This document shows positions 49,774-64,000 of a stretch of 64,000 nt of DNA, one piece after another (positions within the stretch are counted from its first letter, which is position 1; each line of letters begins with the position of its first letter). Under the pieces are notes generated by a model, which saw only the letters and a list, made by a program, of their open reading frames with translations, was not told the DNA's origin and did no database searches. The stretch covers positions 7,339,001-7,403,000 of the forward strand of contig NZ_JADEXS020000001.1 of NCBI RefSeq assembly GCF_015207005.2, read 5' to 3'. This DNA is from Desmonostoc muscorum LEGE 12446. GTDB lineage: Bacteria > Cyanobacteriota > Cyanobacteriia > Cyanobacteriales > Nostocaceae. The position numbers and the translations under genes are program-made.

Positions 49774-51369
49774 TTAAAAATCGAAGGTTGTGCGAATTAC
49801 TCCCACATATTGAGTATTATTTTCGCTGTTGTTTTCTGGGTTGAGAATCACCCAAAAACCAGGAGTCACGGAGATATGGTCGTTCATTCGTAAGCGATAG
49901 AATGCTTCGATGTGGTAAGCGTTGTCCGGTTCTTCACGGACATCACTGTTAGAGATACGCGGTGGCAAACCAACGAGAATTCCTGGCAGGTTACCTTTAC
50001 CGCCCACATCTGGAAACGACAAGCCGATCGCCCCAAACCAGGCATTAGCATTATCGCCATTGTTCACAAACAAAGAATCTGTTGCACCCCTACCATTAGA
50101 AACATCACTCAAACCAGAGTTCTCGGCAGTTGCCCAGATATATCCACCCCAACCGTGGATTTGGAAATTTGGCGAAAAGCGATAGTATCCCTGGGCACCG
50201 ACAATGCTGTTGGAAGTAGCAATATTGTTGCCAAAGGGAGAGCTTGATAGGGCGCTACCTCTGCCGCCTGTGATATCAACAGTGCCAGCAGGATTATAGC
50301 CATGAGAGTAGGCGACACCGATCGCTCCTTGTTTGGCGTAATACACAAGATGGGCAAGAGCGTTGTAACCGCCATCAAATAACCCATTGCTCTGTGTTGG
50401 GTTATTAGGAGTATTTGCTAAATAGCCCACAGTCAGAACCAAGTCTTTGCTGATATTCCAGTTAGCGGCTGCACCACCGCCACCCCGCTCGAAGAGAAAA
50501 CTGTTCTTGCCAAATAGTGAGGGAATCCCGTTGCCATCATCGGCGATCGTAGCAGGGGTTACGTTGTCTGTGATGTCGTTGTAACCAATACCTACAGGGC
50601 CGACAACAAAGGAAAGGGAACTACTCACTGGGAAGTAGTAACGAATGTGGGGAACGAAGAGTGAATTGTTGTTGTCATTGTCGAAGTTTAGCCGCGTCAT
50701 CCCGGTACCGCTGGCTGCGGCAATTTGGCTTGAGCCATTGGAATTGGCAAAGTTGCCAAACTCCAGTCGAACTCGCAACAAATCTTTACCTGTGAAGCTA
50801 CTCTCCAAATTTAGACGGCCGCGAGTAGCAAAGATGGCATTGGATTCATCCCTATTCCCTCCTACCTTATCACCAAAGGTATCGGTAATCGCAGTGATAA
50901 TTTGAGCGTTGAGCTTGGTAGTAGTGGAAAACTGCTGCGCTTCTAGTGTTGCTGTACGTGCCTCCAAGCTATCCACCCGCCCGCGCAGAGTAGCCAGTTC
51001 TGCGGCAAAGTCTTCTTGTAACTTTTGCAGCACTACCAAGTCTTGCTTATTGACCAAATCGCCAGTAGCTGTAGCAATTAATTCATTAACTCGATCTAAA
51101 CAAGCATTCAAACCTGCGGCAAATTCGTAACGAGTTAAAGCACGGTTACCGCGATAGGTGGAATTGGGATAACCTGCAATGCAACCGTAGCGTTCCACCA
51201 GCGATTGTAGTGCTTGAAATGCCCAATCAGTGGGCTGGACATCAGAAAACTGAGAGACTGAGGTAACTTGTCCCTGCAAGGTGCCAAAGTTAGCATCCAA
51301 AGGAGTCGCCCAAACTGCTGGGCATGAGAATAAAAGCAGTGGAAAACTGTATAAAAGATTTTTCAGCAT
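49774..51369 (-). CDS. SLH-domain OprB-type carbohydrate porin
   Basis: About 531 residues from ATG 51369, which starts a signal peptide (MLKNLLYSFPLLLFSCPAVWA). An SLH domain (about 35-100: FSDVQPTDWAFQALQSLVER, YPNSTYRGNRALTRYEFAAG) tethers it to the wall. A short coiled coil follows, then an OprB beta-barrel ending VGVIRTTFDF with a terminal Phe. Cyanobacterial porins of this type let small solutes, including sugars, cross the outer membrane. It lies 840 bp downstream of the sugar ABC importer on the same strand, consistent with shared substrate uptake. The longer frame to 51516 adds a piece of another gene. Confidence 0.86.
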   Translation of the reverse strand: MLKNLLYSFPLLLFSCPAVWATPLDANFGTLQGQVTSVSQFSDVQPTDWAFQALQSLVERYGCIAGYPNSTYRGNRALTRYEFAAGLNACLDRVNELIATATGDLVNKQDLVVLQKLQEDFAAELATLRGRVDSLEARTATLEAQQFSTTTKLNAQIITAITDTFGDKVGGNRDESNAIFATRGRLNLESSFTGKDLLRVRLEFGNFANSNGSSQIAAASGTGMTRLNFDNDNNNSLFVPHIRYYFPVSSSLSFVVGPVGIGYNDITDNVTPATIADDGNGIPSLFGKNSFLFERGGGGAAANWNISKDLVLTVGYLANTPNNPTQSNGLFDGGYNALAHLVYYAKQGAIGVAYSHGYNPAGTVDITGGRGSALSSSPFGNNIATSNSIVGAQGYYRFSPNFQIHGWGGYIWATAENSGLSDVSNGRGATDSLFVNNGDNANAWFGAIGLSFPDVGGKGNLPGILVGLPPRISNSDVREEPDNAYHIEAFYRLRMNDHISVTPGFWVILNPENNSENNTQYVGVIRTTFDF

Positions 51370-51516
51370 TGGGTGTAGTATGGTTTCCTGTATTAGCTTT
51401 TTACTTCTTTCCCAAGAACCGATTAGTTGAAATCCAGGATGCAGATTTATAAATGGTGCATGAAATACTTTACTGGACAATCCATAAGAGCAAAGAGCGG
51501 TATTGATAATTTCCAT
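51370..51516 (-). pseudogene. N-terminal remnant of a Gfo/Idh/MocA-type oxidoreductase fused in frame to the porin gene
   Basis: The first 49 codons of the long porin frame read INTALCSYGLSSKVFHAPF, then LHPGFQLIGSWERSKKLIQE. This is the start of a YdgJ-like Gfo/Idh NAD(P)-dependent oxidoreductase (SYG...GKVFHAPF and WERSK are typical). The match stops at the porin start. It is a remnant joined by deletion, or the breakpoint of a rearrangement, and may still carry the porin promoter. Confidence 0.7.
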
Positions 51517-51626
51517 CTTGTTACTGATTTACTGAAGCGAAAATTTATAAAGAAGAATTCAGAACTCAGGAGTCAGAATTCATGCTGAATTCTGTACGAC
51601 CTCCTTTTTATATTTGGTTGTTGTAT

Positions 51627-51783
51627 GGATCTCTTGCATAAATTTTTTTCTCACGCAGAGACGCAGAGGCAAGGCAGCACGGTCTTCTCCCAAGGGGAGA
51701 CGCCAAGGGCGATGGGGGTTTCCCCATGAGCGACTGCCGCGCAGAAAAGAGAACGCAAAGAAGGAGTTTTGCAAGAAGTTTTA
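51627..51783. repeat. Cyanobacterial CTTGCATAAA...TTTTGCAAGAAG element, copy 1
   Basis: Begins CTCTTGCATAAATTTTTTTC and ends GTTTTGCAAGAAGTTTT. The inside has CACGCAGAGACGCAGAGGC, AGGCAGCACGGTCTTC and ATGAGCGACTGCCGCGCAGA, which pair with each other. Confidence 0.7.
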
Positions 51784-51795
51784 TGATTATTAGAC

Positions 51796-51921
51796 CTCTT
51801 GCATAAATAAGTTTTTATCTCACGCAAAGGCGCAAAGGCAAGGCAGCGCGGTCTTGGGGGTCTCCCCCATGAGCGACTGCCGCACAAAGAATAAGGTAAA
51901 AATAAGGACTTTTGCAAGAAG
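51796..51921. repeat. CTTGCATAAA...TTTTGCAAGAAG element, copy 2, in tandem
   Basis: Same orientation and same ends as the copy 13 bp to its left. The inside is shorter (GGTCTTGGGGGTCTCCCCCA hairpin). The two share AGGCAGC(A/G)CGGTCTT and ATGAGCGACTGCCGC. Confidence 0.7.
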
Positions 51922-52210
51922 TTTATTGATCTGCCGAATGTAGGCTTGTAGATTAAAATGCAGATTTATGAGGGTAATTGGTGAAATATTGTGTTTTTTA
52001 ATTTATTGAATTGTCAAAGTGGAAATAACGAGAAAGGCAAAATCAAGAATAAATAACAAGGGTTTTGAAGCGCCTAAATTTATTTATGGGGTTTTAATTT
52101 TGATGTAAGAATTCAGAATCTAGAATCTATAAGGCTTAGATACACAAGCTTGATAATTCTAACAAAATCAAGTAGCTATTCTGACTCCTGAATTCTTACC
52201 TTTTATTTTT

Positions 52211-53212
52211 TTACCGTCTGGAACGTCTGCGGATTCGGTCAATCATCACGGCAGCGATAATTACTAGTCCTTTAACAACTAGTTGCCAGAAGAAAGACAT
52301 GTTCAACAGAGTTAAACCATTGTTGAGGACAGCAATGATTAATGCACCAAGAAGTGTACCGCCAATTGTACCAATCCCGCCTGTAAAACTAGTTCCACCT
52401 AAAATTACAGCAGCGATCGCATCTAATTCATAGCCTTGACCCAATAAACCGCTAGCACTATAGAGACGGCTGGCACTCATGATGCCTGCCAAACCTGATA
52501 GCAATCCACTCACGCCATAAACAAACAGCAACACTCGATTAACTTTAATCCCTGTTAATCTTGCTGCCCGTTCGTTACCACCCACAGCGTAGATTTGCAC
52601 TCCTAAAACAGTCTGTCGCAGTACAAACCAACTACCTGCCACAGTTAGTAAGGCAATGATCACCAACCACGGAAGAGGACCGATATAGCTATTACCGATC
52701 CAAGCAAAGTTGATATCACGGTTAATAATTGTTGTTCCCTTGGCAATCAAATAGGCAACACCGCGCAACGCAGTCAGTGAACCCAAGGTGACAATAAAAG
52801 GTGGCACATCCAAAAAGGTGATCAAAGCGCCGTTGACTAAGCCCAAAAGCAATCCTGCCAACAAGCCAGCAGGCAAAGCCGCCCAACCTATAGCCGGAAG
52901 TAGCGATACGAGTAACGCAACTACGGCAGAAACAGCTAACATTGACCCCACAGACAAATCAATGCCTCCGGTGAGAATCACGAAGGTCATGCCTGTAGCT
53001 AGGACAATGTTAATGGATGCCTGCCGTAATATATTGACGAGGTTACCGCCTGTGAGGAAGTTGGGAGAAAGGAAGGTAAATAAGATACAGATAAGTATGA
53101 GAATTGGTAAAATACCTGCAACTTCCAGCAAGGTGGCGATGGATCTCGGTTGGCGGGCGTTTGGATTGTTGCCGACTTTATTTCTATTGGTAGGTCTTAC
53201 TGTTTGACTCAT
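52211..53212 (-). CDS. CUT2-family sugar ABC transporter permease
   Basis: The protein has 333 residues and about eight to ten membrane helices. RbsC-like features: [40 protein letters not shown], and the EAA-like loop [20 protein letters not shown]. Its ATG overlaps the TGA of the ATPase gene by four bases (ATGA), so the two are coupled. It forms the membrane channel of a ribose/inositol-type importer. The neighbourhood (inositol oxygenase, uronate enzymes) points to myo-inositol or a related polyol or sugar acid as substrate. Confidence 0.9.
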
Positions 53213-54762
53213 GATTCTAGTACCCCCGATGCTCCTGTTGCATAATGCATAATCTTTTCTTGGGTAATTTCTTTACCGGGACTGTCGTCGAGTTCACCCA
53301 CTAGCTGTCCTTCTCGCATTACCAAAACGCGATCGCTCATGCCAACGATTTCTGGTAATTCGCTGGAAACCATTAAAATAGCCACGCCTTGGGCTGCTAA
53401 TTCGCTGATAATCCGGTAAATCTCGCTCTTGGCGCCGATATCTACGCCCCGTGTCGGCTCATCCAGCATGATGACTCTTGGTTTAATGGCTAGCCAACGC
53501 GCTAGGAGTAGCTTCTGCTGATTCCCACCAGAAAGATCCACCGCCCTGATTTCCAAGTTAGCCAATCGGATATTGAAGTTTTCCACCGCTTCCGTTGCCA
53601 AGCGATTGACTGAACCCCAGTTGACAACCCCAGCCCTGGCATCCTGTTTGAGTGTGTTCAGGGCAATATTCTTGCGAGAACTCATCTCCAGAAATAAACC
53701 TTGGTCTTTGCGGTCTTCCGGGACGTAGCCGATACCGGCAGCAATGGCATCACTGGGGCTATTAATATGCAGTTTCACGCCATTGAGGAAGACTTCACCA
53801 CTGGTTTTGCGATCGGCACCAAAAATCAGTCGGGATACTTCTGTACGTCCAGCACCCACCAGTCCTGCTAAACCAAGGATTTCACCAGCGCGAATTTGAA
53901 AACTAGCCGGTTCAATCTTGCGTCCGTCGCTGATATTTCGGACTTCCAACACCACCGGGCCGGGATTGGTTTGGCGTTGATGTTCGTAAAAGTCTTGCAT
54001 CGAACGACCAACCATCATCTGCACTAACCGCTGGGCAGAAATTTCATCCCGTGTGAGACTGCCGATGTATTGACCATCGCGCAGCACGCTAATCCGGTCA
54101 GCCAATGCATATATTTCCTCCATGCGGTGACTGATGTAGATAATGGCAATGCCATCGTCTCGTAGTCTGCGAATGACTTCAAACAAACACTCAGTCTCGC
54201 GGTCAGATAGGGCTGCTGTTGGCTCATCCATCACCAAAACCCGACTGTTGTCTTTCAGCGCCCTGGCAATTTCTACCTGCTGCTGTTCGGCAATGGATAA
54301 GGTGCCAACTATGGTATTGGCTGTAAAATTTGCTCCCAAGCTTTGGAGTACTAGCTTTGCTTCGTCTTCCATAGCTTTGCGGTCTAAGAACTGACCCCGC
54401 TGTAACTCGCTACCCATGAAAATATTTTCGGTAACGGTTAAGTTGGGTGCAACATTCAGTTCTTGATAAATCAGGTTAATCCCCGCTTTGCGTGCTGAAG
54501 CCGGATCGGTAATTTTCACCGGGGTACCGTTGATGCGAATCTCGCCTTCATCGGCAATGTAAGCCCCGGCGAGGATTTTCATCAATGTACTCTTGCCTGC
54601 TCCGTTCTCGCCCATGAGAGCATGAACTTCTCCGGGATAAATTGTCAGATTGACATTTTGCAGTGCAGGTACACCATGAAATCGTTTGGCAATCCCTTGC
54701 ATTTCTAATACAGGGGCGGCAGTTGGTGCTTCAGGAAAGGAGGTTTCAATACTTGTGGTCAT
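53209..54762 (-). CDS. CUT2-family sugar ABC transporter ATPase (two ABC domains)
   Basis: About 517 residues from ATG 54762, which has CAGGAG six bases upstream. The longer frame to 54846 is STRR translation. Domain 1: Walker [15 protein letters not shown], signature [15 protein letters not shown], Walker [12 protein letters not shown]. Domain 2: degenerate Walker [15 protein letters not shown], signature [15 protein letters not shown], Walker [16 protein letters not shown]. This is the RbsA/MglA/IatA layout, where two fused ATPase halves drive one permease. It is coupled to the permease gene downstream. Confidence 0.92.
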
Positions 54763-54769
54763 GAGCAAC

Positions 54770-54860
54770 TCCTGTAAAAATAATGGGGACTGGGGATTGG
54801 GGATTGGGGATTGGGGATTGGGCATTGGGGATTGGGCATTGGGCATTGGGCATTGCTAAG
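54770..54860. repeat. STRR GGGGATT/GGGCATT array in the ABC operon
   Basis: Heptamers GGGGACT, GGGGATT and GGGCATT cover about 54784-54856, with matching CCCCAGT/CCCCAAT units at about 54916-54954 on the other side, so the 193-bp operon gap can fold on itself. Confidence 0.75.
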
Positions 54861-54955
54861 TGCTAAGTGAGGAGTTAGGAGTTATTCTTCTTGTCTCCCT
54901 TGTCTCCCTCATCTCCCCAGTCCCCAATCCCCAGTCCCCAGTCCCCAGTCCCCAT

Positions 54956-55990
54956 TCACCAACCTTTCTCCGTGCTGACGTTATCTTTGGTGATCAGCTT
55001 GACTGGAATCAAAATGGTGGGGTTACTGGGTTTTTTACCGTTCAAAATGTCGTTGCCAACTTCGACTGCTTTTGCTGCCATGCCTCGCGGATTTTGAGTC
55101 GCTGTTGCTGCATATATACTATCTTTGACAGCGATCGCTTTAATGGCTTCTGGCGCACCATCAACGCCAACAATAAAGAAGTCTTTACGTTGTGCTTGGT
55201 TGGCTGCTAGTTCTGCTCCCACTCCACTCGGATCGTTGATCGCAAAAACAGCATCAATTTTGGGAAAGGTTGTCAGCAAATCTGTCATAACTCTCAATCC
55301 GCCATCCCTACTGCCTTCTCCGTTCTGGTCTTTGGAGAGGAGTTTGAGATCGGGATATTTGGCCAATACTTTCTCGCAACCACTGACTCGCTGAATCACC
55401 GAGTCCACCTGAGGCCCATTGAGAATTACTACACTACCTTTGCCTTTGAGACGGTCAGCAATATATTGACAACCAACTTCTCCCGCTTGCACATTATTAG
55501 TTGTAACCGTGGCATCTACACCGCCTTCAGCACCTGTATCTACCGCAATCACAATTCTGCCTGCTTCTTTAGCTTTTTCCACTGCTGGCTTAATGCCACT
55601 TTTATCAGCAGCATTCAGGATAATAATGTCAGTATTCGACGCCGTGAAGTTTTCAATTTGGTTGGCTTGTTGGTTGAGGTCATAGGCACTGGAAACTACG
55701 GTTGTCCTGACATCATTCCCGCCGATTTTCTTGGCTGTGGCTTCAATTTCCTGTCCCATCAAGACGAAGAAGGGGTTACTTAAATCGCCAGCCGTGAAAG
55801 CTACCGATCGCAATTTCCCATCACCACTACCTGGCTTACCCTGGGCGCTAGTATTAGTAGCTGTATTACCAGCAGCGTTGGTATCAGGATTACTAGCAGT
55901 ACCATTTTCAGAGCCATTTGAGCAACCAATCACAGTACCACCAACCAGACTTATTAAACTAGCTGCGATCGCAATTTTTCTTAAATTCAT
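54956..55990 (-). CDS. Sugar-binding lipoprotein of the ABC importer, paralogue 1
   Basis: About 344 residues from ATG 55990 with AGAGGAGA just upstream. The longer frame to 56128 translates decamer repeats. Lipoprotein signal ends LVGGTVIGCS (lipobox Cys near 22), then a Thr/Asn-rich linker and a periplasmic-binding-protein type I fold: FTAGDLSNPFFVLMGQE, YDLNQQANQIENF, DTGAEGGVDATVTTNN, NDPSGVGAELAANQ. It is close in sequence to the next gene upstream. It should hand a sugar or polyol to the RbsA/RbsC-like pair. Confidence 0.9.
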   Translation of the reverse strand: MNLRKIAIAASLISLVGGTVIGCSNGSENGTASNPDTNAAGNTATNTSAQGKPGSGDGKLRSVAFTAGDLSNPFFVLMGQEIEATAKKIGGNDVRTTVVSSAYDLNQQANQIENFTASNTDIIILNAADKSGIKPAVEKAKEAGRIVIAVDTGAEGGVDATVTTNNVQAGEVGCQYIADRLKGKGSVVILNGPQVDSVIQRVSGCEKVLAKYPDLKLLSKDQNGEGSRDGGLRVMTDLLTTFPKIDAVFAINDPSGVGAELAANQAQRKDFFIVGVDGAPEAIKAIAVKDSIYAATATQNPRGMAAKAVEVGNDILNGKKPSNPTILIPVKLITKDNVSTEKGW

Positions 55991-56121
55991 ATATCTCCTC
56001 TTAAAAAAAATCTGAATCGGGCATAGGGCATAGGGCATGGGGCATTGGTTATTCTCCCCCTGCCTCCCCTGCCTCCCCTGCCTCCCCTGCCTCCCCTGCC
56101 TCCCCTGCCCCTCTGCCCCCA

Positions 56122-57120
56122 CTACCACCCTTTGTAGCTACCAAGGTTATCACGGGTAACCAACTTGACTGGAACGAGAATCTGAGAATTACTCAGTTTT
56201 TTGCCTTGGATGACATCGTTGCCAACCTCGACGGCTTTTTGCGCCATGCCTGCGGGATCTTGGGCAGCAGTTGCAACAAATACACCGTCTTTGTCTTCCA
56301 TTGCTTTGGTTGCATCTGGTGAACCATCAACCCCAACAATAAAAAGTTCTTTACGTCTTGCTTGTCTGGCTGCTAAATCTGCGCCGACGCCGCTTTGGTC
56401 GTTGGTGGCAAAAACGGCATCGATTTTGGGGAAGGTTGTCAGCACGTCACTCATAACTCTCAGTCCGCCATCCCTTGTCCCTTCTGCGTTCTGGTCTGAG
56501 ATGATTTTGATATCTGGATATTTGGCTAAGGAATTCCTACAGCCACTGACTCGCTGATTGATTGAGTCCATCGGTGTACCGTTCAGAATAACTACATTAC
56601 CTTTGCCGTTGAGGCGATCGCCAATATATTTGCAAGCAATCTCTCCAGCTTGGATATTGTTAGAGCTAATCATGGCATCCACGTCTGCATCAACGGCTGA
56701 ATCTACCGCAATCACAATCCTACCTGCGCTCCTCGCTTGATCGATCGCTGGTTTAACTCCTTTTTTGTCAACCGCACTGAGGATAATTAAGTCAGTATTC
56801 GCCGCCGTGAAATTTTCGATTTGGTTGCTTTGTTGGTTCAAATCGAAGCCACTGGAAACTGTATTAACTCTGATCTCATCCCCAATTTTTTTTGCTTTTT
56901 CTTCAGCCCCCCTCTGCACTGCTACATAAAAGGGATTACCTAAATCACCCAAGGTAATGCCGATTGTTTGCAATGCTTTATTTTTTAAACTAGCGTTAGT
57001 AGCAGTATTAGTAGTAGTATTGGTAGCGGTGTTGCTATTTGGAGTGCCGTTGCAACCCACAACTGCAATGCCAACGAAACTTAATATGCTAGCTAAAAAC
57101 AAAACTTTCTTCATATTCAT
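56122..57120 (-). CDS. Sugar-binding lipoprotein of the ABC importer, paralogue 2
   Basis: The protein has 332 residues. Lipobox SFVGIAVVGCNG (Cys near 23), an Asn/Thr linker (NTATNTTTNTATNAS), then a binding-protein fold matching paralogue 1 nearly block for block: GITLGDLGNPFYVAVQRG, FDLNQQSNQIENF, NDQSGVGADLAARQ, ending LGSYKGW versus VSTEKGW. The pair arose by tandem duplication, and one importer may serve two related ligands. First gene of the reverse transport run. ATG 57120 or the ATG two codons later could be the start. Confidence 0.9.
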   Translation of the reverse strand: MNMKKVLFLASILSFVGIAVVGCNGTPNSNTATNTTTNTATNASLKNKALQTIGITLGDLGNPFYVAVQRGAEEKAKKIGDEIRVNTVSSGFDLNQQSNQIENFTAANTDLIILSAVDKKGVKPAIDQARSAGRIVIAVDSAVDADVDAMISSNNIQAGEIACKYIGDRLNGKGNVVILNGTPMDSINQRVSGCRNSLAKYPDIKIISDQNAEGTRDGGLRVMSDVLTTFPKIDAVFATNDQSGVGADLAARQARRKELFIVGVDGSPDATKAMEDKDGVFVATAAQDPAGMAQKAVEVGNDVIQGKKLSNSQILVPVKLVTRDNLGSYKGW

Positions 57121-57862
57121 CTATATCCCAAAATGCATTTGAATTTGAGGAAAATTAGCAGAATATAAATCCGCAATATTATACAATCTTGATAACTTGA
57201 TATTTAGTCTAGTGGCACTTCTAGCTTGGGCAATTGCAATTTTTATCAAATATGTTGCAATCTGACGACATTTTAATTGCTGTTATTAGTTACACTAAAT
57301 TATTTTTTTGCTGTTTCCAGCAAAAAATGAGCGTTGCAATACATCCAAAAATGAGGTTTTTTGTGTTTTGGAAAATTGTATTTGAAAGTGCTGAGGTTGA
57401 AAAAAGTTGTTTCCTTAAGATTTAGAAAATCTTAGTTGATTAAACGTTTGACTTTCTGTGTTATTTGACTTTTTATTCTATCCTGGATTCTGGACACAAA
57501 TGAATTTCCTTTATCGAAGTTTACAAAATGAAGAAGTATTTTTCATTTCAATGTAATATCATGTCAGATGAGTGACTTTTGATAACTTATGATGTGCAGA
57601 TACAGCGGATTTCAAAGAAAGTGAAGTACACAACGATTCGTCTGGTACTCAGGTATAGAGGCTGTTTGACTTCAGAATTCTGCTGTATCTACACAGTTTT
57701 TCTCGTTTTACAGACACAAGTTATGCCATTGAAATTGGAAAAATATTCCGGTTGGTTGAGGCTTGGCGAAAAATTTTTGCCGATAATGATCAATAAAAAA
57801 TCATTGCAATCTTGAGAAACTCAATCAGGAACCAAAATCTTTGGTTTGGTGACGCCAGAAAT
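57121..57862. other. Promoter-side spacer of the transport operon
   Basis: 742 bp, A/T rich. It holds one TTACAGC-family element (57598-57690). No copy of the TGCACACGTGTGCA operator was found here, so the transport operon may be controlled separately. Forward frames at 57234-57425 and 57579-57815 are not recognisable proteins. Confidence 0.5.
57598..57690. repeat. 93-bp MITE of the TTACAGC family, copy 4 (no STRR insert)
   Basis: Ends AGATACAGCGGATTTC and GAATTCTGCTGTATCT are inverted copies with two mismatches. The interior AAAGTGAAGTAC pairs by alignment with TACTTCACTTTC of copy 2 in reverse. It lacks the heptamer array and may show the ancestral form. Confidence 0.75.
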
Positions 57863-58759
57863 TTAGAATTTTAAGGTTGGCGGTAAATATTTAGCTACTA
57901 AGTCTTCGTAGTATGGCTTGAGGTTTTGCCAATCAGGAGGATTGGGGTTTTTGGAATACAAATCGTAGGGATTGAATAACTTGACCCATTTAAACATTTC
58001 TTCATCGTGTTTATCCATCAAATGTTCGTAGGCGTTCTCACGATGTTGGGGATAAAATGAGTGATAGCGAAGGATGTACAATGCAGGTTCGGGCAAGTAA
58101 GGTTTCATCATACTATAGAAATACTCATCGTGTCCCCATGACATGTGTACATTACTTAATCCACAATTTGGCTCATATATACCATATTTAGTGTTATATT
58201 TCGGGTTATTGCGTTCGGGATTATCTTTGAAAAATTCCGAGAAAACAATTCTATCAGAAAATGCACAACCTACAGGATAGGTATCGCCTACACTCGCCCA
58301 TTGGGGTTCACCAAATAAGCAAAGTACTTTCCCCATATCGTGAAAGAAACCTGTCAGTACCATCCAATCAGGATGACCATCAGCGCGAATAGCTTCTGAT
58401 GTTTGCAACAAATGTTGTAATTGGTCTAAGTCTGTATCGGGATCTGAATCATCAACTAGTTGATTCAAAAATTCTACCGCATCCCAAACGGTCATTTCTT
58501 TTTTGTCAAACTTGAGAAACTCTGCTTTTTTCTGTAGTACAAAATCATATGTTTGATTAATATGATTTAATCGGTAGAATTCTTTGACTGTATCTCTAGT
58601 AGTCGTTTCGTAATTTCTGTACGTTTCAACAGTTTTACCTTCTTTAAGTATGCTGTTCGGATCGGGATAGCGATTGAGTAAATCTTCTTCCCATTCTTCT
58701 AATGAATGTAAAGGATTGTTTTGAGGTTGTTTGATGGGATGATTTAGAGTTTGAGACAT
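57863..58759 (-). CDS. myo-Inositol oxygenase
   Basis: The protein has 298 residues, the usual MIOX length. Metal-binding residues of the di-iron HD-type fold are visible: His in LLQTSEAIRADGHPDWMVLT, GFFHDMGKVL (HD pair), MSWGHDEYFYSM (His), RYHSFYP (His), and Asp in KLFNPYDLYSK. The enzyme cleaves myo-inositol with O2 to D-glucuronate. Downstream enzymes for glucuronate (UxaC and an SDR) lie 2.5-5 kb away. Three LacI-type operator palindromes sit 31-121 bp upstream of the start, so expression is probably repressed without inducer. Confidence 0.92.
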   Translation of the reverse strand: MSQTLNHPIKQPQNNPLHSLEEWEEDLLNRYPDPNSILKEGKTVETYRNYETTTRDTVKEFYRLNHINQTYDFVLQKKAEFLKFDKKEMTVWDAVEFLNQLVDDSDPDTDLDQLQHLLQTSEAIRADGHPDWMVLTGFFHDMGKVLCLFGEPQWASVGDTYPVGCAFSDRIVFSEFFKDNPERNNPKYNTKYGIYEPNCGLSNVHMSWGHDEYFYSMMKPYLPEPALYILRYHSFYPQHRENAYEHLMDKHDEEMFKWVKLFNPYDLYSKNPNPPDWQNLKPYYEDLVAKYLPPTLKF

Positions 58760-58789
58760 ATCTTCCTATTAATGATGATTAAAATTTTT

Positions 58790-58803
58790 TGCACACGTGT
58801 GCA
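58790..58803. promoter_or_regulatory. LacI-family operator O1 before inositol oxygenase
   Basis: Perfect palindrome TGCACACGTGTGCA, with the central CG typical of LacI-family sites, 31 bp upstream of the inositol oxygenase start codon. Confidence 0.85.
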
Positions 58804-58822
58804 TAAACTCTATATTTTTATT

Positions 58823-58840
58823 CTTGCACACGTGTGCAAG
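58823..58840. promoter_or_regulatory. LacI-family operator O2 before inositol oxygenase
   Basis: Perfect 18-bp palindrome CTTGCACACGTGTGCAAG, 35 bp centre to centre from O1. Confidence 0.87.
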
Positions 58841-58866
58841 AATGTCTGTTAAGTTTCTTATCTATT

Positions 58867-58880
58867 TGCACAAGCGTGCA
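58867..58880. promoter_or_regulatory. LacI-family operator O3 (degenerate)
   Basis: TGCACAAGCGTGCA, with mismatches at the inner positions, 42 bp from O2, about four helix turns. Confidence 0.75.
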
Positions 58881-58902
58881 TTTTCTCTTCAGCAAACATT
58901 CT

Positions 58903-59259
58903 TTACTTTACAAAGTGAATTTTTTGTTGTGGATGTTTAGCAATGTCAATTTTGTGCTGTGGATACTTGACAATATTAGCCAACTCCTGCAATTGATTGA
59001 TTGCTTCTGCACCCTCTAACTTCATTAATTCGCGGTCATCCCAAATTTCCATCCAAGTAATACCGTAATCGGACACTAAAAAGCGAATCAGGTGCTTTTC
59101 TTCCAGGCTGACCATAAATGAAGCACTCTTGATTTGGTCGCCACATGTATAACAAGATGTAAGATAACCACGCTGCTCAAGTACAATTGACAAAGCTTGC
59201 AGATTGATTACCAAGTCTTGGACGACTTGCTGATGTTGTTGCGCTAATCTGAGAAACAT
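58903..59259 (-). CDS. Conserved-looking small protein of unknown function
   Basis: The protein has 118 residues from ATG 59259, with GGAGGAAAATA directly upstream. No family is named. Visible features: N-terminal helix (QQHQQVVQDLVINLQALSIV), a CYTCG pair of cysteines (near 36-39), SASFMVSLEEKHLIRFLVSD, and YGITWMEIWDDRELMKLEGA. The tail repeats KYPQHKIDIAK / KHPQQKIHFVK. Encoded between gntK and the inositol oxygenase gene on the same strand, so it may be co-transcribed with gntK. Confidence 0.65.
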   Translation of the reverse strand: MFLRLAQQHQQVVQDLVINLQALSIVLEQRGYLTSCYTCGDQIKSASFMVSLEEKHLIRFLVSDYGITWMEIWDDRELMKLEGAEAINQLQELANIVKYPQHKIDIAKHPQQKIHFVK

Positions 59260-59329
59260 TATTTTCCTCCTACGTTACAGTGATGCGATCGCTTTATATT
59301 TGTTTAAGATCAGTTTTCCCACAGAGATG

Positions 59330-59830
59330 CTAAATTCCTAAAGCTGTTCTGATGTCTTGGACAATTACCTGGGGTGTCTCGATAACATCTATATATAGAG
59401 TGTCTGATGGTTCTTCCAGAGTATTAAACTGGCTATTGAGGAGTTTTTCGCTCATGTAGTGATTATGACGCTCTTGCAAGCGCTGTTGAATTAACTCATA
59501 AGAGCCTTTGAGGTAAACTAGTTTGATGCGTTCGCTATCCACCACCAGAAATTGCCGATAGCTTTCTTTGAGAGCCGAACACGCCAGCACCATATTTTTA
59601 TTTTCTTGCAGCCAGTTTTTAATCGCTGCTTGCAAATCTTGTAACCAAGGTGTTCTATCGGCTTCAGTCAAAGGTATACCGCACCGCATTTTTTCAACAT
59701 TCTCCAGCGAGTGAAAAGCATCGGCGTCGCTAAATTCCCAGTTTAAAGAGTCTGCTAGCAGTTTTCCTATGGTGGTTTTGCCCGCTCCGGAAACGCCCAT
59801 CATGATGATAATCATTGATTTTTCGATCAT
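59330..59830 (-). CDS. gntK: Gluconokinase (GntK family)
   Basis: The protein has 166 residues. P-loop MMGVSGAGKTTIGKLLADSL, then FSDADAFHSLENVEKMRCGI (substrate side), LTEADRTPWLQDL, LACSALKESYRQFL, VYLKGSYELIQQRLQERHNH. This is the full GntK pattern. It phosphorylates D-gluconate to 6-phosphogluconate with ATP. In this locus it would feed gluconate-type sugar acids into the oxidative pentose phosphate or Entner-Doudoroff routes. Divergent from the lacI-type gene. Confidence 0.88.
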   Translation of the reverse strand: MIEKSMIIIMMGVSGAGKTTIGKLLADSLNWEFSDADAFHSLENVEKMRCGIPLTEADRTPWLQDLQAAIKNWLQENKNMVLACSALKESYRQFLVVDSERIKLVYLKGSYELIQQRLQERHNHYMSEKLLNSQFNTLEEPSDTLYIDVIETPQVIVQDIRTALGI

Positions 59831-59879
59831 AGTTTTGCAAAAAAGTTAAATTATATCAAGTTTGCTTAATCACCGCTGA

Positions 59880-59976
59880 TTACAGCGTTTTTCATCTATT
59901 TGAACCACAATCCTCGGTAGGGTAGCACAGCTGTGCTACCCTACAACGTGGTGTATTTACCTGAAAATTGCTGTAA
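59880..59976. repeat. 97-bp dispersed palindromic element, copy B (TAGCAC core)
   Basis: Inverted relative to copy A at 4551-4647. The flanks match at all but one position, but the 16 inner bases of the 28-bp palindrome are different (TAGCACAGCTGTGCTA) while still self-complementary. Confidence 0.87.
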
Positions 59977-60131
59977 AATCTCCCCCTGTCCCAATACGCT
60001 TGGGTTAAGCCTTTTTCTTCTTCCCCTGCCTCCCCTGCCTTCCCCCTGTCCCTTTTTCCGAAGTTTTATGCTTTGTTAATGGGTGAATCCATTGACAGAT
60101 GACTCAACTTTGCTAATAATTAAAATTATAA

Positions 60132-60145
60132 TGCACACGTTTGCA
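60132..60145. promoter_or_regulatory. LacI-family operator O4, probable autoregulation site
   Basis: TGCACACGTTTGCA, one mismatch from the perfect palindrome, 18 bp upstream of the regulator start codon, placed to block its own transcription. Confidence 0.82.
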
Positions 60146-60162
60146 TTACTTACAGTAAAATC

Positions 60163-61197
60163 ATGAAGAAACGAAAAGTTTCAATTGAAGATATTGCCCG
60201 CAGAGCAGGCGTTTCTCATTCTACAGTTTCGCGTGCTTTGCGAGATAACTCTCTAATTAGCCCGAAGGTGCGAGAGGAAATTAAGAAAATAGCGCGGGAG
60301 ATGAACTACGTACCCAATGCCATCGCTCAAAGCTTGCAAAATCAACGGACTAATACCGTTGGGGTAGTGGTGACTTCCATCGCAGATCCTTTTTACGCTG
60401 AGGTAGTAGAGGGAATTGAACAGGTAGCTAGAACAGCTGGTTTGAGTGTTTTGTTAACTGCTTCACACCGTGATTTCGAGCAGGAAATCGCAGCTATTGA
60501 TAATTTTCATCGCCGCAGAGTGGACGGCATATTAGTCACTGATTCACGAATTAATAAAAACAATACTGACAGACTAAGTGAAATTTCTGTGCCAACAGTT
60601 TTGATTAATAGTCAGACAGAAGATCAACCTGAAACATTTCACACAGTGACAGTGGATGACTTTTTAGGTGGTCGATTGGCAGTAGAGCATTTGATCGATT
60701 TGGGACACACGGCTATTGGCTATTTGGGCGTGGGCGATCGCAGTAAGTCAAATCAACTGCGCCAAGAAGGATATAGCAAGGCTTTGAGCGCAGCTGGGTT
60801 ACCACAAAACAGTGATTGGGTGGCAATTAGTGACGAAGACAATATCAGAATCAGCGATGTTGATACGGGAAAAAAGATGCTACCTCAACTATTTGCCGCT
60901 GGTGTAACTGGCATCTTTTGTTACAACGACATGGTGGCAGTTGGCGCTCTCTTAGCCTGCCAAGAACTAAATATTTTGATACCGCAAACTTTAAGTTTGG
61001 TAGGATTTGACGATGTTGCTCTTTGTCGTTACGTAACGCCGTCACTGACGACAGTTTGCCAACCAATGTTGGAAATTGGTCGCTCGGCGATGGAAATGTT
61101 ACTCGATTTACTAGAGGAAAAAACCGTAGAAAACCGCGTTTTCTCTCCTTTTCTAGTAAAGCGGGGTAGTACTGCGGCATTTGGGGGAGGGGGATGA
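60163..61197 (+). CDS. LacI-family repressor of the inositol/glucuronate genes
   Basis: The protein has 344 residues. The HTH is at residues 4-52: VSIEDIARRAGVSHSTVSRA, hinge YVPNAIAQSLQNQRTN. The ligand domain is of the periplasmic-binding type: VVVTSIADPFYAEVVEGIEQ, VDDFLGGRLAVEHLIDLGHT, FDDVALCRYVTPSLTTV. The end GGGG is written by GGGATGAGGG repeats, so the last residues have drifted. The operator O4 overlaps its promoter, and O1-O3 match it upstream of the inositol oxygenase gene. Inducer could be inositol, glucuronate or a later product. LacI regulators are rare in cyanobacteria, in my knowledge. Confidence 0.9.
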   Translation: MKKRKVSIEDIARRAGVSHSTVSRALRDNSLISPKVREEIKKIAREMNYVPNAIAQSLQNQRTNTVGVVVTSIADPFYAEVVEGIEQVARTAGLSVLLTASHRDFEQEIAAIDNFHRRRVDGILVTDSRINKNNTDRLSEISVPTVLINSQTEDQPETFHTVTVDDFLGGRLAVEHLIDLGHTAIGYLGVGDRSKSNQLRQEGYSKALSAAGLPQNSDWVAISDEDNIRISDVDTGKKMLPQLFAAGVTGIFCYNDMVAVGALLACQELNILIPQTLSLVGFDDVALCRYVTPSLTTVCQPMLEIGRSAMEMLLDLLEEKTVENRVFSPFLVKRGSTAAFGGGG

Positions 61198-61300
61198 GGG
61201 GGATGAGGGGGATGAGGGGGATGAGGGGGATGAGGGAGATGAGGGAGATGAGGGGACGCGGAGAAAAACTAATGACCAATGACAAATGACAAATGACAAA
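61190..61300. repeat. GGGGATGAGG decamers and AATGACA heptamers
   Basis: About seven GATGAGGGGG/GATGAGGGAG units (61194-61255) and then TGACAAA heptamers (about 61277-61312) fill the gap and reach the uxaC start codon. Confidence 0.8.
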
Positions 61301-61306
61301 TAACTA

Positions 61307-62746
61307 ATGACAAAAATTATGTTAGCGAAAAAATGGAGTTTATCTGGCGATCGCTGTTTCGCTCCAGAACCAATTCAAAGACAACTAGCTCGTCAATTTT
61401 TTGACAGCATATCTACTCTACCCCTGGTCTGTCCCCACGGACACGTAGACCCAGCCTTATTAGCTAATCCAGCAGCCCGTTTTGGTTCGCCAACGGAATT
61501 ATTGATTATTCCTGACCATTACATTTTCCGTATGCTTTATAGTCGGGGCGTACCTTTGTCAGCTCTCGGCATACCTACCCGTGATGGTTCAGCAGTAGAA
61601 ACCGACCACCGCAAGATTTGGCAGCTTTTCGCCGACCATTTTTACTTATTCCAAGGTACTCCCTCTGGGTTGTGGCTGAAAGACGAACTCACTAACGTCT
61701 TTGGGGTGGATGAGCCTTTAAACTCTCGCAACGCCGCACATATCTATGATTACCTGGAAAAACTGTTATTGTTACCTGAATTCTCACCTCGTGCTTTATT
61801 CAAAAAGTTTAATATTCAAGTGCTTTGTACTACCGATGCGGCTAGCGATGCTCTTGAGTACCATCAATCATTACACCAAGAAGGTTTTACTCAGATCAAA
61901 CCTACTTTTCGACCAGATGCAGTAGTCAACCTGGATACTCCTGGTTGGCGGGAAAATCTCAGCAAGCTGGAAATCACTGTTGGGCGAGAAATTAGTACTT
62001 ACGCTACTTTCGTGCAAACTCTAGAAGAACGTCGAGCCTTCTTTAAAAAAATGGGCGCCACAGCTACCGACCATAGTGCAGCAACACCTTATACCGAACG
62101 CCTTACCCACCAGGAAGCAGAAGCCATCTTTGCTAGAGCATTAGCTAATAAGCTAAATCCCGGTGATGCAGAGCGTTTTACTGGGCATATGTTCACGGAA
62201 ATGGCTCGAATGAGTGTAGAAGATGGTCTGGTGATGCAAATGCATTGCGGTATTATGCGTAATCATAATTCGTCTGTCTTTGAGCAGTTTGGGTCAGATA
62301 AAGGTGCTGATATTCCCTTGAAGATAGAGTGGACGGAAAATTTGCATCCGTTGTTGACAGCCTACGGTAATCACCAAAACTTTCACTTAATCCTGTTTGG
62401 ATTAGATGAAAGCACTTATAGCCGCGAACTAGCTCCCTTAGCCGGTCATTATCCCGCAGTACTGCTGGGGCCGCCCTGGTGGTTTCACGACAGCATCAAT
62501 GGCATGGAACGATACTTCAATCAGGTGATGGAAACCGCTGGACTTTATAATACCGCCGGCTTTAATGATGATACACGGGCTTTTGTTTCCATTCCTGCCC
62601 GCCACACTGTTTGGCGACGTGTAGCTTGTAACTGGTTAGCGGGATTGGTAACACGCGGGTTAATTGAGGAAGAAGAAGGCTATGAAATGGCTCATGCTTT
62701 AGCTTACGACCTCGCCAAGGTTGCTTACAAATTAGACGTTTCTTGA
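61307..62746 (+). CDS. uxaC: Glucuronate isomerase UxaC
   Basis: The protein has 479 residues, the family's usual length. Amidohydrolase-type fold with VCPHGHVDPALL (metal His pair), DHYIFRMLYSRGV, TTDAASDALEYHQ, RPDAVVNLD, MQMHCGIMRNHNSSVFEQFG, and PPWWFHDSINGMERYF. It converts D-glucuronate to D-fructuronate (and galacturonate to tagaturonate). It follows the lacI-type gene and precedes the SDR gene. The start is ATG 61307, with another ATG four codons later; no ribosome site is clear because repeats reach the start. The stop codon lies at the edge of a 21-bp tandem repeat. Confidence 0.92.
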   Translation: MTKIMLAKKWSLSGDRCFAPEPIQRQLARQFFDSISTLPLVCPHGHVDPALLANPAARFGSPTELLIIPDHYIFRMLYSRGVPLSALGIPTRDGSAVETDHRKIWQLFADHFYLFQGTPSGLWLKDELTNVFGVDEPLNSRNAAHIYDYLEKLLLLPEFSPRALFKKFNIQVLCTTDAASDALEYHQSLHQEGFTQIKPTFRPDAVVNLDTPGWRENLSKLEITVGREISTYATFVQTLEERRAFFKKMGATATDHSAATPYTERLTHQEAEAIFARALANKLNPGDAERFTGHMFTEMARMSVEDGLVMQMHCGIMRNHNSSVFEQFGSDKGADIPLKIEWTENLHPLLTAYGNHQNFHLILFGLDESTYSRELAPLAGHYPAVLLGPPWWFHDSINGMERYFNQVMETAGLYNTAGFNDDTRAFVSIPARHTVWRRVACNWLAGLVTRGLIEEEEGYEMAHALAYDLAKVAYKLDVS

Positions 62747-62920
62747 CCTGCACCTTAGTTGCATTGACCTGCACCTTTGATGCATCGACCTGCACCTTAG
62801 TTGCATCGACCTGCACCTTAGTTGCATCGACCTGCACCTTAGTTGCATCGACCTGCACCTTAGTTGCATCGACCTGCACCTTAGTTGCATCGACCTGCAC
62901 CTTAGTTGCATCGACCTGCA
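62744..62920. repeat. 21-bp tandem repeat, eight units plus a partial
   Basis: Units of 21 bp built on GACCTGCACCTTAGTTGCAT, starting every 21 bases from 62745 to 62913. The second unit has TTTGAT in place of TTAGTT. The first unit includes the uxaC stop codon. Both strands stay open through it (VQVDATK repeats on one, CTLVAST on the other) with no recognised product. Confidence 0.93.
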
Positions 62921-62987
62921 AAAATTAACCCACCGTTGATGAAATCAAGATTGTGTCTTAACAAAGTACTAAACAGAGGAATTATCA

Positions 62988-63842
62988 ATGCCAAACTTAT
63001 TGAATAAATCAGATTTGATTTTGCATCAACTTTTTAGCCTCAAAGACCAAGTAGCAGTAGTCACCGGTGGTTCTGGTGTGCTTGGTGGGGCGATGGCGCG
63101 GGGTTTAGCCCTTGCGGGAGCGCGAATAGTGGTTCTCGGCCGCAATGAAGCACGGGCGGATGCAGTTGTAGCTGATATTACCGCTAATGGTGGGGAAAGT
63201 ATGGTGGTGCTGGCAGATGTTGGCGATCGCTCCCAATTAGAAATAGCCAGACACGCTATTTTAAAGCATTGGGGTAAGATAGACATCCTGGTAAACGCCG
63301 CTGGTGGTAATATTCCAGCTGCCACAATTACAGCTGACGCTACTTTTTTTGATATGCCGCACGTAGCATTTGAGCAAGTAGTTAGTCTCAATTTGGTGGG
63401 TACTTTACTACCCAGCCAGGTTTTTGGTCAAGCGATGGTGGAAAGAAATCAACCCCAAGGTTGCATTGTGAATATTTCTTCCATGTCTGCTATCCGGGCG
63501 ATTAGTCGGGTGGTTGGTTACTCAGCGGCGAAAGCAGCCATAGATAACTTTACTCGTTGGCTAGCAGTGGAACTCGCTCAAAAATATGGGGACGGGTTGC
63601 GAGTAAATGCGATCGCCCCAGGTTTTTTTATTGGCGAACAAAATCGAGATTTACTTTTAAATCCAGATGGTAGTTTAAGCGATCGTGGACAAAAAATCAT
63701 TGCTCATACCCCAGCTGGGCGTTTTGGAGAACCCCAGGAATTACTTAGTACCTTGATTTGGTTATGCAGTTCTGGTTCTAGTTTCGTCAACGGGGTAGTT
63801 GTACCAGTAGACGGTGGATTTAGCATCTACAGCGGAGTTTAG
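62988..63842 (+). CDS. SDR oxidoreductase, probable D-mannonate/fructuronate reductase
   Basis: The protein has 284 residues. GAGGAATTATCA precedes ATG 62988. Classical SDR motifs: VVTGGSGVLGGAMARGLALA, DVGDRSQLE, NAAGGNIPA, Ser in VNISSMSAI, YSAAKAAID, and APGFFIGEQNRDLL. This length and the PGFFIGEQNR segment are usual in SDR-type mannonate (fructuronate) oxidoreductases. It would follow UxaC by reducing D-fructuronate to D-mannonate. The role rests on family resemblance and context. A mannonate dehydratase is not in the window. Confidence 0.82.
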   Translation: MPNLLNKSDLILHQLFSLKDQVAVVTGGSGVLGGAMARGLALAGARIVVLGRNEARADAVVADITANGGESMVVLADVGDRSQLEIARHAILKHWGKIDILVNAAGGNIPAATITADATFFDMPHVAFEQVVSLNLVGTLLPSQVFGQAMVERNQPQGCIVNISSMSAIRAISRVVGYSAAKAAIDNFTRWLAVELAQKYGDGLRVNAIAPGFFIGEQNRDLLLNPDGSLSDRGQKIIAHTPAGRFGEPQELLSTLIWLCSSGSSFVNGVVVPVDGGFSIYSGV

Positions 63843-63844
63843 AA

Positions 63845-64000
63845 ATGTATTCATTAGCCGTAACTAAAAATGGCACCCTTGCAGATGAGGAAGTTTGCCA
63901 ACTCGTTCATCAAGCTTTAGCAGATTCTAGATTTGATGGACAGCGCATCTTAGTATTAATTCCAGATGGAACCCGCACTGCTCCCATCCCGCAAATGTTT
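63845..64000 (+). CDS. LarA/DUF2088-like lactate racemase-family protein, N-terminal part (runs off window)
   Basis: ATG 63845 is two bases after the SDR stop codon; 52 codons are visible and the frame is open at the edge. It ends in LVLIPDGTRTAPIPQMF. The IPDGTRTAP motif matches the N-terminal IPDxTR block of LarA-like nickel-dependent racemases (DUF2088). Relatives are found with sugar-acid genes, where they may epimerise a hydroxy acid. Tight linkage to the SDR gene suggests one transcript. Confidence 0.7.
   Translation, partial: MYSLAVTKNGTLADEEVCQLVHQALADSRFDGQRILVLIPDGTRTAPIPQMF

Follow-up and report, generated by a model that had tools for sequence, protein, structure and literature searches.

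What does the hrm (hormogonium-regulating) locus of Nostoc make, and what does its regulator sense? Since 1997 this locus, which signals plant-associated Nostoc to cease forming motile filaments, has been linked to the plant-driven switch that holds cyanobacterial partners in the nitrogen-fixing state, and its metabolite is hypothetical. We approached the question through Desmonostoc muscorum LEGE 12446, in which the hrm genes lie in a window of 64,000 nucleotides (the whole stretch analysed; contig NZ_JADEXS020000001.1, positions 7,339,001 to 7,403,000), on an 8.86-Mb contig of a 9.6-Mb genome with an estimated completeness of 100%. Our reading, to which we give a probability of roughly 0.7, is that the hrm locus encodes every step between myo-inositol (or imported glucuronate) and 6-phosphogluconate; its most likely function is to convert inositol or an imported uronate to that product as a sensed carbon source. 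What is new here is an enzyme family for HrmA, an end point for the pathway, which is thereby closed, and a candidate operator sequence with four exact genomic sites, which makes the question of product and sensing assayable. If true, the reading gives the nickel-pincer cofactor a part in the central metabolism of an oxygenic phototroph.

In the proposed route, HrmE would oxidize myo-inositol with O2 to D-glucuronate, HrmI would isomerize this to D-fructuronate and HrmU would reduce the latter to D-mannonate. HrmA, as a nickel-pincer nucleotide (NPN) enzyme, would then invert C2 to give D-gluconate, which HrmK would phosphorylate to 6-phosphogluconate. The housekeeping 6-phosphogluconate dehydrogenase Gnd, which we assume from general knowledge of cyanobacteria to be present in the source genome, would finally release ribulose 5-phosphate, CO2 and NADPH. 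All the activities in this scheme, and the direction of flow, are inferred.

The gene calls in the window were checked against Pfam and NCBIfam profiles, which confirm the contiguous run named in the original prediction: a porin, a CUT2 ATP-binding cassette (ABC) importer with two binding proteins, a myo-inositol oxygenase (MIOX), a gluconokinase, a LacI-type regulator, the uronate isomerase UxaC, a short-chain dehydrogenase/reductase (SDR) and a LarA-like gene. The last of these starts 2 bases past the SDR stop and runs beyond the window end; extension past position 64,000 gives it complete. The order LacI-UxaC-SDR-LarA is identical to that of the operon hrmRIUA as given in PMC8074062. By position, then, the LarA-like gene is hrmA, and the locus itself was already known. 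Judged by gene content and order, the cluster is the known Nostoc hrm locus, and its presentation as a novel island does not hold. The map in PMC5987646 shows the porin and frtA1A2BC beside the hrm genes and supplies the names hrmE, for the inositol oxygenase, and hrmR; taken with PMC8074062, the Nostoc punctiforme locus thus has hrmE, hrmK and hrmRIUA in equal order beside the same porin and importer genes. We equate our gene with N. punctiforme HrmA on the basis of this published operon order. The likeness of the hrm genes to uronate metabolism is likewise already in print in the passages of both papers on the locus. HrmA itself is given as unknown in the hrm passages of PMC5987646 (2018) and as peculiar to cyanobacteria, without homologues, in those of PMC8074062 (2021). 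We found no enzyme assignment for hrmA in passages on it from PMC5987646, PMC10095879, PMC6702271, PMC12825409, PMC8386757, PMC9620832 and PMC8074062, and no link between hormogonium and racemase in open-licence PMC text, in which only PMC5987646 brings hormogonium, glucuronate and Nostoc together.

The protein that would close the route is HrmA. It carries a LarA-type N-terminal domain (PF09861, 83.4 bits against a cut-off of 23.3), and among solved chains 4nar comes closest by sequence (226 bits, against 38.8 for the next of LarA type). This chain is GntE2 of Thermotoga maritima, for which conversion of D-mannonate to D-gluconate has been measured, according to the GntE sections of PMC7583248. 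The two proteins are 37.7% identical (143 of 379 aligned residues), and HrmA residues D41, R44, H75, H160, K170, H186 and K285, all invariant across a 16-sequence HrmA alignment, match NPN-binding and catalytic positions of GntE2. On the GntE2 side, R41, K164 and H180 are named in the same sections of PMC7583248, H154 and K287 were deduced from its E155 and G286, and D38 and H73 were placed by us in its alignment with HrmA. That source also describes a hexonate signature for D-gluconate 2-epimerase groups 18 to 20 (E-V/S after the catalytic His, a W in alpha-11 and A/V in alpha-14); H160-E161-V162 and W281 of HrmA correspond to its first two parts, which are those that were mapped. The predicted HrmA structure has a mean predicted local distance difference test score (pLDDT) of 79.8, with residues 313–362 below 50. 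In a fold search it ranks 4nar first (E 7.2e-36, template modelling (TM) score 0.82) and 9eid next (0.72); the matches after 4nar are lactate and malate racemases with TM scores of 0.73 and lower, and all 19 matches with E ≤ 0.001 are LarA-type. The cofactor genes LarB (288.9 bits), LarE (325 bits) and LarC are present in the genome. Based on these features, we propose that HrmA is a nickel-pincer D-mannonate/D-gluconate 2-epimerase.

An exit of this kind bears on what the genome lacks. No UxuA (PF03786) was found in the whole source genome or in any of the 53 genomes of the genus, with a positive control that matched in 5 of 14 known genomes. Two enolase-superfamily proteins exceed the cut-off in the source genome: an L-Ala-D/L-Glu-epimerase/DgcA-like protein, which scores 51.6 bits with the ManD model (cut-off 550), and MenC, the o-succinylbenzoate synthase. 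One further superfamily match lies below cut-off, and no ManD-type enolase over the model cut-off is among the matches. On these counts a classical tail via UxuA or ManD was rejected, and it appears that mannonate could not be converted to 2-keto-3-deoxygluconate (KDG) by the known enzymes searched for here. The original prediction had expected UxuA, KdgK and Eda to follow; of these, Eda, the 2-keto-3-deoxy-6-phosphogluconate (KDPG) aldolase, is indeed encoded elsewhere in the genome and UxuA is not. With Eda present, 6-phosphogluconate could also go via KDPG, if a dehydratase exists. We propose that the LarA-like gene and the gluconokinase form an alternative exit in place of UxuA-KdgK-Eda. 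The best PDB chains for HrmK are 4eun ('thermoresistant glucokinase'), 1knq (gluconate kinase) and 3t61 (gluconokinase).

The steps down to mannonate fare as first proposed: a chain of MIOX, uronate isomerase and fructuronate reductase, leading from inositol through glucuronate and fructuronate, is supported by sequence, and its genes share a single conserved cluster and a single regulator. HrmE aligns with the mammalian MIOX structures 2huo (272.6 bits) and 2ibn (263.9 bits) and keeps the motifs HxxQT, HDxGK, WGHDEY, RxHSFY and FNxxDLY, which we take to carry the di-iron ligands; no NCBIfam model matched it. In an even sample of 386 genomes of the cyanobacterial phylum, MIOX exceeds the cut-off in four, all from the window's genus, with five further matches below it, so a wide spread in cyanobacteria was rejected. 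In a protein search MIOX also came up in Brasilonema, Scytonema hofmannii and Nostocaceae CENA369, so it is not restricted to a single genus. Among named proteins from outside cyanobacteria, the nearest MIOX is from Bacteroidota (Pontibacter, 78–79%) and the nearest named HrmA relatives outside cyanobacteria are from Chloroflexota (72%), so that the locus, by nearest named relatives rather than trees, looks assembled from different sources.

Genome contigs were searched with a profile of the HrmA alignment, which gave at least 584 relatives; the best 80 were kept for locus counts. These comprise 13 Nostocales loci (L074–L086) and 67 others, many of them Chloroflexota or Acidobacteriota by title, and represent the closest relatives rather than a random sample. 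Across Nostocales, GntK, LacI, UxaC, SDR and LarA occur together in 11 of 13 loci, the remaining two having too little flank, and 9 of the 11 also hold MIOX. Outside cyanobacteria, LarA is 53–71% identical in all 67 loci, SDR homologues (31–56% identity) accompany it in 44, and UxaC is found at 55–63% in 13 and at 29% in two. If only the 53 loci with more than 3 kb upstream are considered, 34 have the SDR (>130 bits) and 13 a close UxaC (>300 bits). Of the 60 loci with at least 1.6 kb downstream, 23 have gnd on the same strand with its start no more than 800 bp past LarA; gnd is found anywhere in the locus in 38 of 67, and close UxaC, SDR and adjacent gnd join LarA in eight. All six scanned proteins directly downstream of LarA are decarboxylating 6-phosphogluconate dehydrogenases over cut-off. 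Long open reading frames (ORFs) not directly after LarA in L102, L106 and L116 were rejected as Gnd: the first is UxaE, the third ProA, and that of L106 had no match at the E-value used. An E. coli UxuA query matched in none of the 80 loci. In Chloroflexota and other phyla, these UxaC-SDR-LarA-Gnd clusters share LarA throughout, and the SDR and UxaC in part, with the hrm locus. They differ from it in their gnd and in the absence of any MIOX or GntK-type match in the 67 loci, and some of the representatives scanned carry UxaE, others IolG, IolN or IolO. Given the generally known pathway roles of these enzymes, a different inositol front end may feed the same back end there. In L092, L095 and L120, proteins encoded near the LarA-like gene exceed the NCBIfam cut-offs for IolO, IolG and IolN. 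A PfkB-family kinase, of which one representative was scanned (L117:3772-4869), lies in 13 of the 67 loci, a median of 2.7 kb past the LarA start, and might be the gluconate or hexonate kinase of the non-cyanobacterial loci.

The upstream regions of hrmE and hrmR have the palindrome TGCACACGTGTGCA in common. The pattern TGCACAMGYKTGCA occurs without mismatch at four sites in the 9.6 Mb, of which hrmE has three upstream and hrmR the fourth. With one mismatch allowed it gives 11 rows, four further places outside the locus among them; a reversed control pattern gives four rows. Upstream stretches from a set of loci (L042–L070, L074–L086 and L158–L177, some from the same strains) were surveyed at a threshold of 11 of 14 matches, using matches that begin near the protein start and have at least 300 bases upstream. 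The predicted operator is found in 35 of 35 distinct hrmE and 22 of 22 hrmR stretches, and in 19 of 27 for hrmK, which has its intergenic region in common with hrmR; it was found in none of the 52 stretches upstream of binding-protein matches (both paralogues included) and in none of the 34 upstream of the DUF1815 gene. On this basis hrmE and hrmR-I-U-A are predicted to form one regulon, and hrmK adjoins the same intergenic region as hrmR. HrmR would act as a LacI-type repressor at TGCACACGTGTGCA-like palindromes before hrmE and hrmR, from which a uronate would free it. The distribution of the sites agrees with the HrmR passages of PMC5987646, in which a galacturonate-like compound is thought to free HrmR from the hrmR and hrmE promoters. 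The promoter-like site TTGACA-17-AATAAT next to the hrmR operator (60092–60120) was the best of its scan, at 11 of 12 positions; the scan as a whole gave 15 such sites, where shuffled sequences gave 11.1 ± 3.3. The hrmK-hrmR intergenic region also holds, at 59921–59940, a perfect 20-base palindrome, GGTAGCACAGCTGTGCTACC, that is distinct from the HrmR site.

Within the genus, LarA and MIOX tend to be kept or lost together. When fragments are counted, 34 of the 53 genomes have both, one has LarA alone, five MIOX alone and 13 lack both (Fisher p = 1.3e-7, without correction for kinship); for intact genes only the figures are 30, 2, 6 and 15 (p = 8.5e-7, likewise uncorrected). In 28 of the 34 pairs the genes fall within 12 kb on one contig, at distances of 4.3–8.1 kb; of the other six, four are on separate contigs, one is 35 kb and one 1.4 Mb apart. 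Decay of the locus was viewed in 20 stretches of the genus, and in decayed loci hrmI, hrmU and hrmA are lost together: remnants of all three persist in G125 and only UxaC pieces in G422, G428 and G415 have lost the block, and nothing in the stretches of G167 and G432 matched it.

A close analogue of the whole arrangement is the GntE uronate route of T. maritima, which has a uronate isomerase, mannonate formed by reduction, an NPN-dependent 2-epimerase, a gluconokinase and entry into the pentose phosphate pathway. Its course from mannonate via gluconate to 6-phosphogluconate is a proposal of Rodionova 2012, cited in the portion of PMC6978723 on this route. T. maritima differs in being an anaerobe, whereas Nostoc has an O2-dependent MIOX, a GntK-type kinase, an SDR and a locus tied to cell differentiation. 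Thermotoga is also said to have another inositol route, reportedly described by Rodionova in 2013.

Several observations weigh against the route from inositol to 6-phosphogluconate. For HrmA, the substrate-side residues G286 and N348 of GntE2 are replaced by A284 and G342, and the signature comparison covers the first two parts. The best-scoring LarA-type NCBIfam model, NF052594 ('putative hexonate epimerase'), gives 195 bits against a cut-off of 500, so an equivalog call is not justified and we describe HrmA as GntE-like. GntE1, which has the same kind of signature, shows a KM of 120 mM for mannonate (kinetic data in PMC7583248), and the true HrmA substrate could therefore be another hexonate. 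LarC occurs in 53 of 53 genus genomes, including 18 without LarA, so the cofactor genes are non-specific support, and LarC was rejected as specific support for HrmA. The gnd gene is not in the hrm cluster of Nostoc, with no match in the 13 Nostocales loci, and is not directly downstream of LarA in 37 of 60 non-cyanobacterial loci. Two Nostocales loci, L076 and L079, have hrmK-R-I-U-A without MIOX nearby, G391, a 72% complete genome, has LarA but no MIOX, and in G395, which still has LarA, a stop cuts the MIOX match at residue 254. Conversely, MIOX and GntK are kept in G167 and G432, in stretches without hrmI, hrmU and hrmA, and in G422 and G125 with only remnants of these, which counts against strict dependence. 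Four one-mismatch TGCACAMGYKTGCA places lie outside the locus, no fewer than the control. Lastly, the published work, in the hrm passages of PMC5987646, favours a signalling metabolite, an inhibitor, over catabolism.

A wider version of our reading is that HrmA completes an oxygen-dependent, redox-neutral shunt from inositol to ribulose 5-phosphate, that the hormogonium-repressing signal of the plant is metabolic and that flux through the shunt ends the motile state. Inositol or uronate derived from the host would enter the shunt, a uronate intermediate would release HrmR from all four of its operators in the genome, and motility would be ended by flux into the pentose phosphate pathway, which is the NADPH route of heterocysts. 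We offer this version tentatively, as possible but doubtful.

The signalling view, that the hrm genes make a uronate-like inhibitor of hormogonium differentiation that feeds back on HrmR, with carbon catabolism beside the point and flux perhaps even running from gluconate back to glucuronate, seems to us unlikely. The isomerase, reductase and epimerase steps are, from general knowledge, reversible and would permit such flux, but MIOX is in practice irreversible, and three of the four predicted operators stand before its gene. The cluster moreover has its own kinase, and the homologous sets in other phyla, often with gnd, have a catabolic look. This view does not exclude the route to 6-phosphogluconate, as a pathway intermediate can be the signal.

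Less probable again is an order in which phosphorylation comes first, with HrmK as a mannonate kinase and HrmA epimerizing 6-phosphomannonate to 6-phosphogluconate, so that the end product is equal. The hrm cluster has genes of both kinds, and this order has been demonstrated in cell extracts of Lactobacillus suebicus, for which a gluconokinase homologue is suspected to be the mannonate kinase; the same passages of PMC6978723, however, state that the structural genes of its key enzymes are still to be identified. HrmK matches GntK-type gluconokinases, and GntE2, the closest characterized relative of HrmA, acts on unphosphorylated D-mannonate (PMC7583248, GntE sections), both of which count against this order. 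The classical inositol and glucuronate route, with UxuA, KdgK and Eda encoded outside the cluster as its last steps, is very improbable, since, for all that Eda is present and HrmI and HrmU belong to that route, the genus has no UxuA, the source genome no ManD-type enolase over cut-off, and hrmA and hrmK would be left without a role.

The porin and importer genes, which the original prediction had linked to inositol uptake, may serve another substrate. The best PDB chains of the binding proteins are 4rwe (338.5 and 329 bits) and 2ioy; 4irx, presumably the Caulobacter inositol-binding protein, gives only 71.5 and 75.3 bits. With no predicted operator before the genes either, an inositol importer was dropped as unsupported. 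By map and description, the genes correspond instead to oprB and frtA1A2BC. As with the fructose importers frtABC in Anabaena variabilis and frtA1A2BC in N. punctiforme, a porin gene adjoins those of a CUT2 importer, and the two binding-protein genes correspond to frtA1A2. According to the passages of PMC10515406 and PMC8261047 that report Ekman 2013, frtA1A2BC is required for growth on fructose and is apparently not under HrmR.

Table 1. Genes and predicted operator sites of the hrm region (window coordinates unless marked L002; a point marks sites without strand)
Feature	Coordinates	Strand	Basis
OprB carbohydrate porin with SLH domain	49774-51516	-	PF04966 + PF00395; corresponds to porin of published map
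CUT2 permease	52211-53212	-	Pfam/NCBIfam
CUT2 importer ATPase	53209-54846	-	Pfam/NCBIfam
Binding protein of CUT2 importer, one of two	54956-56128	-	Pfam/NCBIfam
Second binding protein of CUT2 importer	56122-57120	-	Pfam/NCBIfam
Whole CUT2 importer, corresponding to frtA1A2BC (fructose)	52211-57120	-	Published map and genetics; no predicted HrmR site
hrmE, putative myo-inositol oxygenase (MIOX)	57863-58759	-	PF05153, 367 bits
Predicted HrmR operator 1, upstream of hrmE	58790-58803	.	TGCACACGTGTGCA
Predicted HrmR operator 2, upstream of hrmE	58825-58838	.	TGCACACGTGTGCA
Predicted HrmR operator 3, upstream of hrmE	58867-58880	.	TGCACAAGCGTGCA
DUF1815 gene between hrmE and hrmK	58903-59259	-	PF08844, 168.8 bits
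hrmK, GntK/IdnK-type gluconokinase	59330-59830	-	TIGR01313, 156.2 bits (cut-off 113.75)
Predicted HrmR operator upstream of hrmR	60132-60145	.	TGCACACGTTTGCA; just downstream of promoter-like site 60092-60120
hrmR, LacI-type regulator	60163-61197	+	PF00356 + Peripla_BP_3; name from PMC5987646
hrmI, uronate isomerase (UxaC)	61307-62746	+	NF002794, 498.5 bits (cut-off 387); 2q01, 449.6 bits
hrmU, SDR, D-mannonate oxidoreductase subfamily	62988-63842	+	NF006132, 390.4 bits (cut-off 281)
hrmA, LarA-like	63845-64000 in window (156 bases), ATG at 63845; full gene L002:845-2107, 420 aa	+	PF09861

The DUF1815 gene inside the cluster, absent from the earlier gene list, is present in 10 of the 11 Nostocales loci that cover the region and is perhaps the 'unk' of the published hrm map. 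A LarA homologue is found in 35 of the 53 genus genomes, against LarC in all of them, and LarC matches also turn up among the named controls, Synechococcus elongatus being one. Two explanations offer themselves: a further cyanobacterial client of the nickel-pincer cofactor, or another role for LarC. About 9 kb past hrmA lies a GFO/IDH/MocA oxidoreductase (L002:11345-12442). The map in PMC5987646 places 'mviM', an inositol-2-dehydrogenase, close to the hrm locus, but the protein here reaches 107 bits on iolG, for which the cut-off is 355. Tandem repeats of a 21-base unit (8.4 copies, 62745–62920) lie between hrmI and hrmU inside the operon, and a second 21-base array with a different unit (17.9 copies, L002:2280-2655) follows directly after hrmA.

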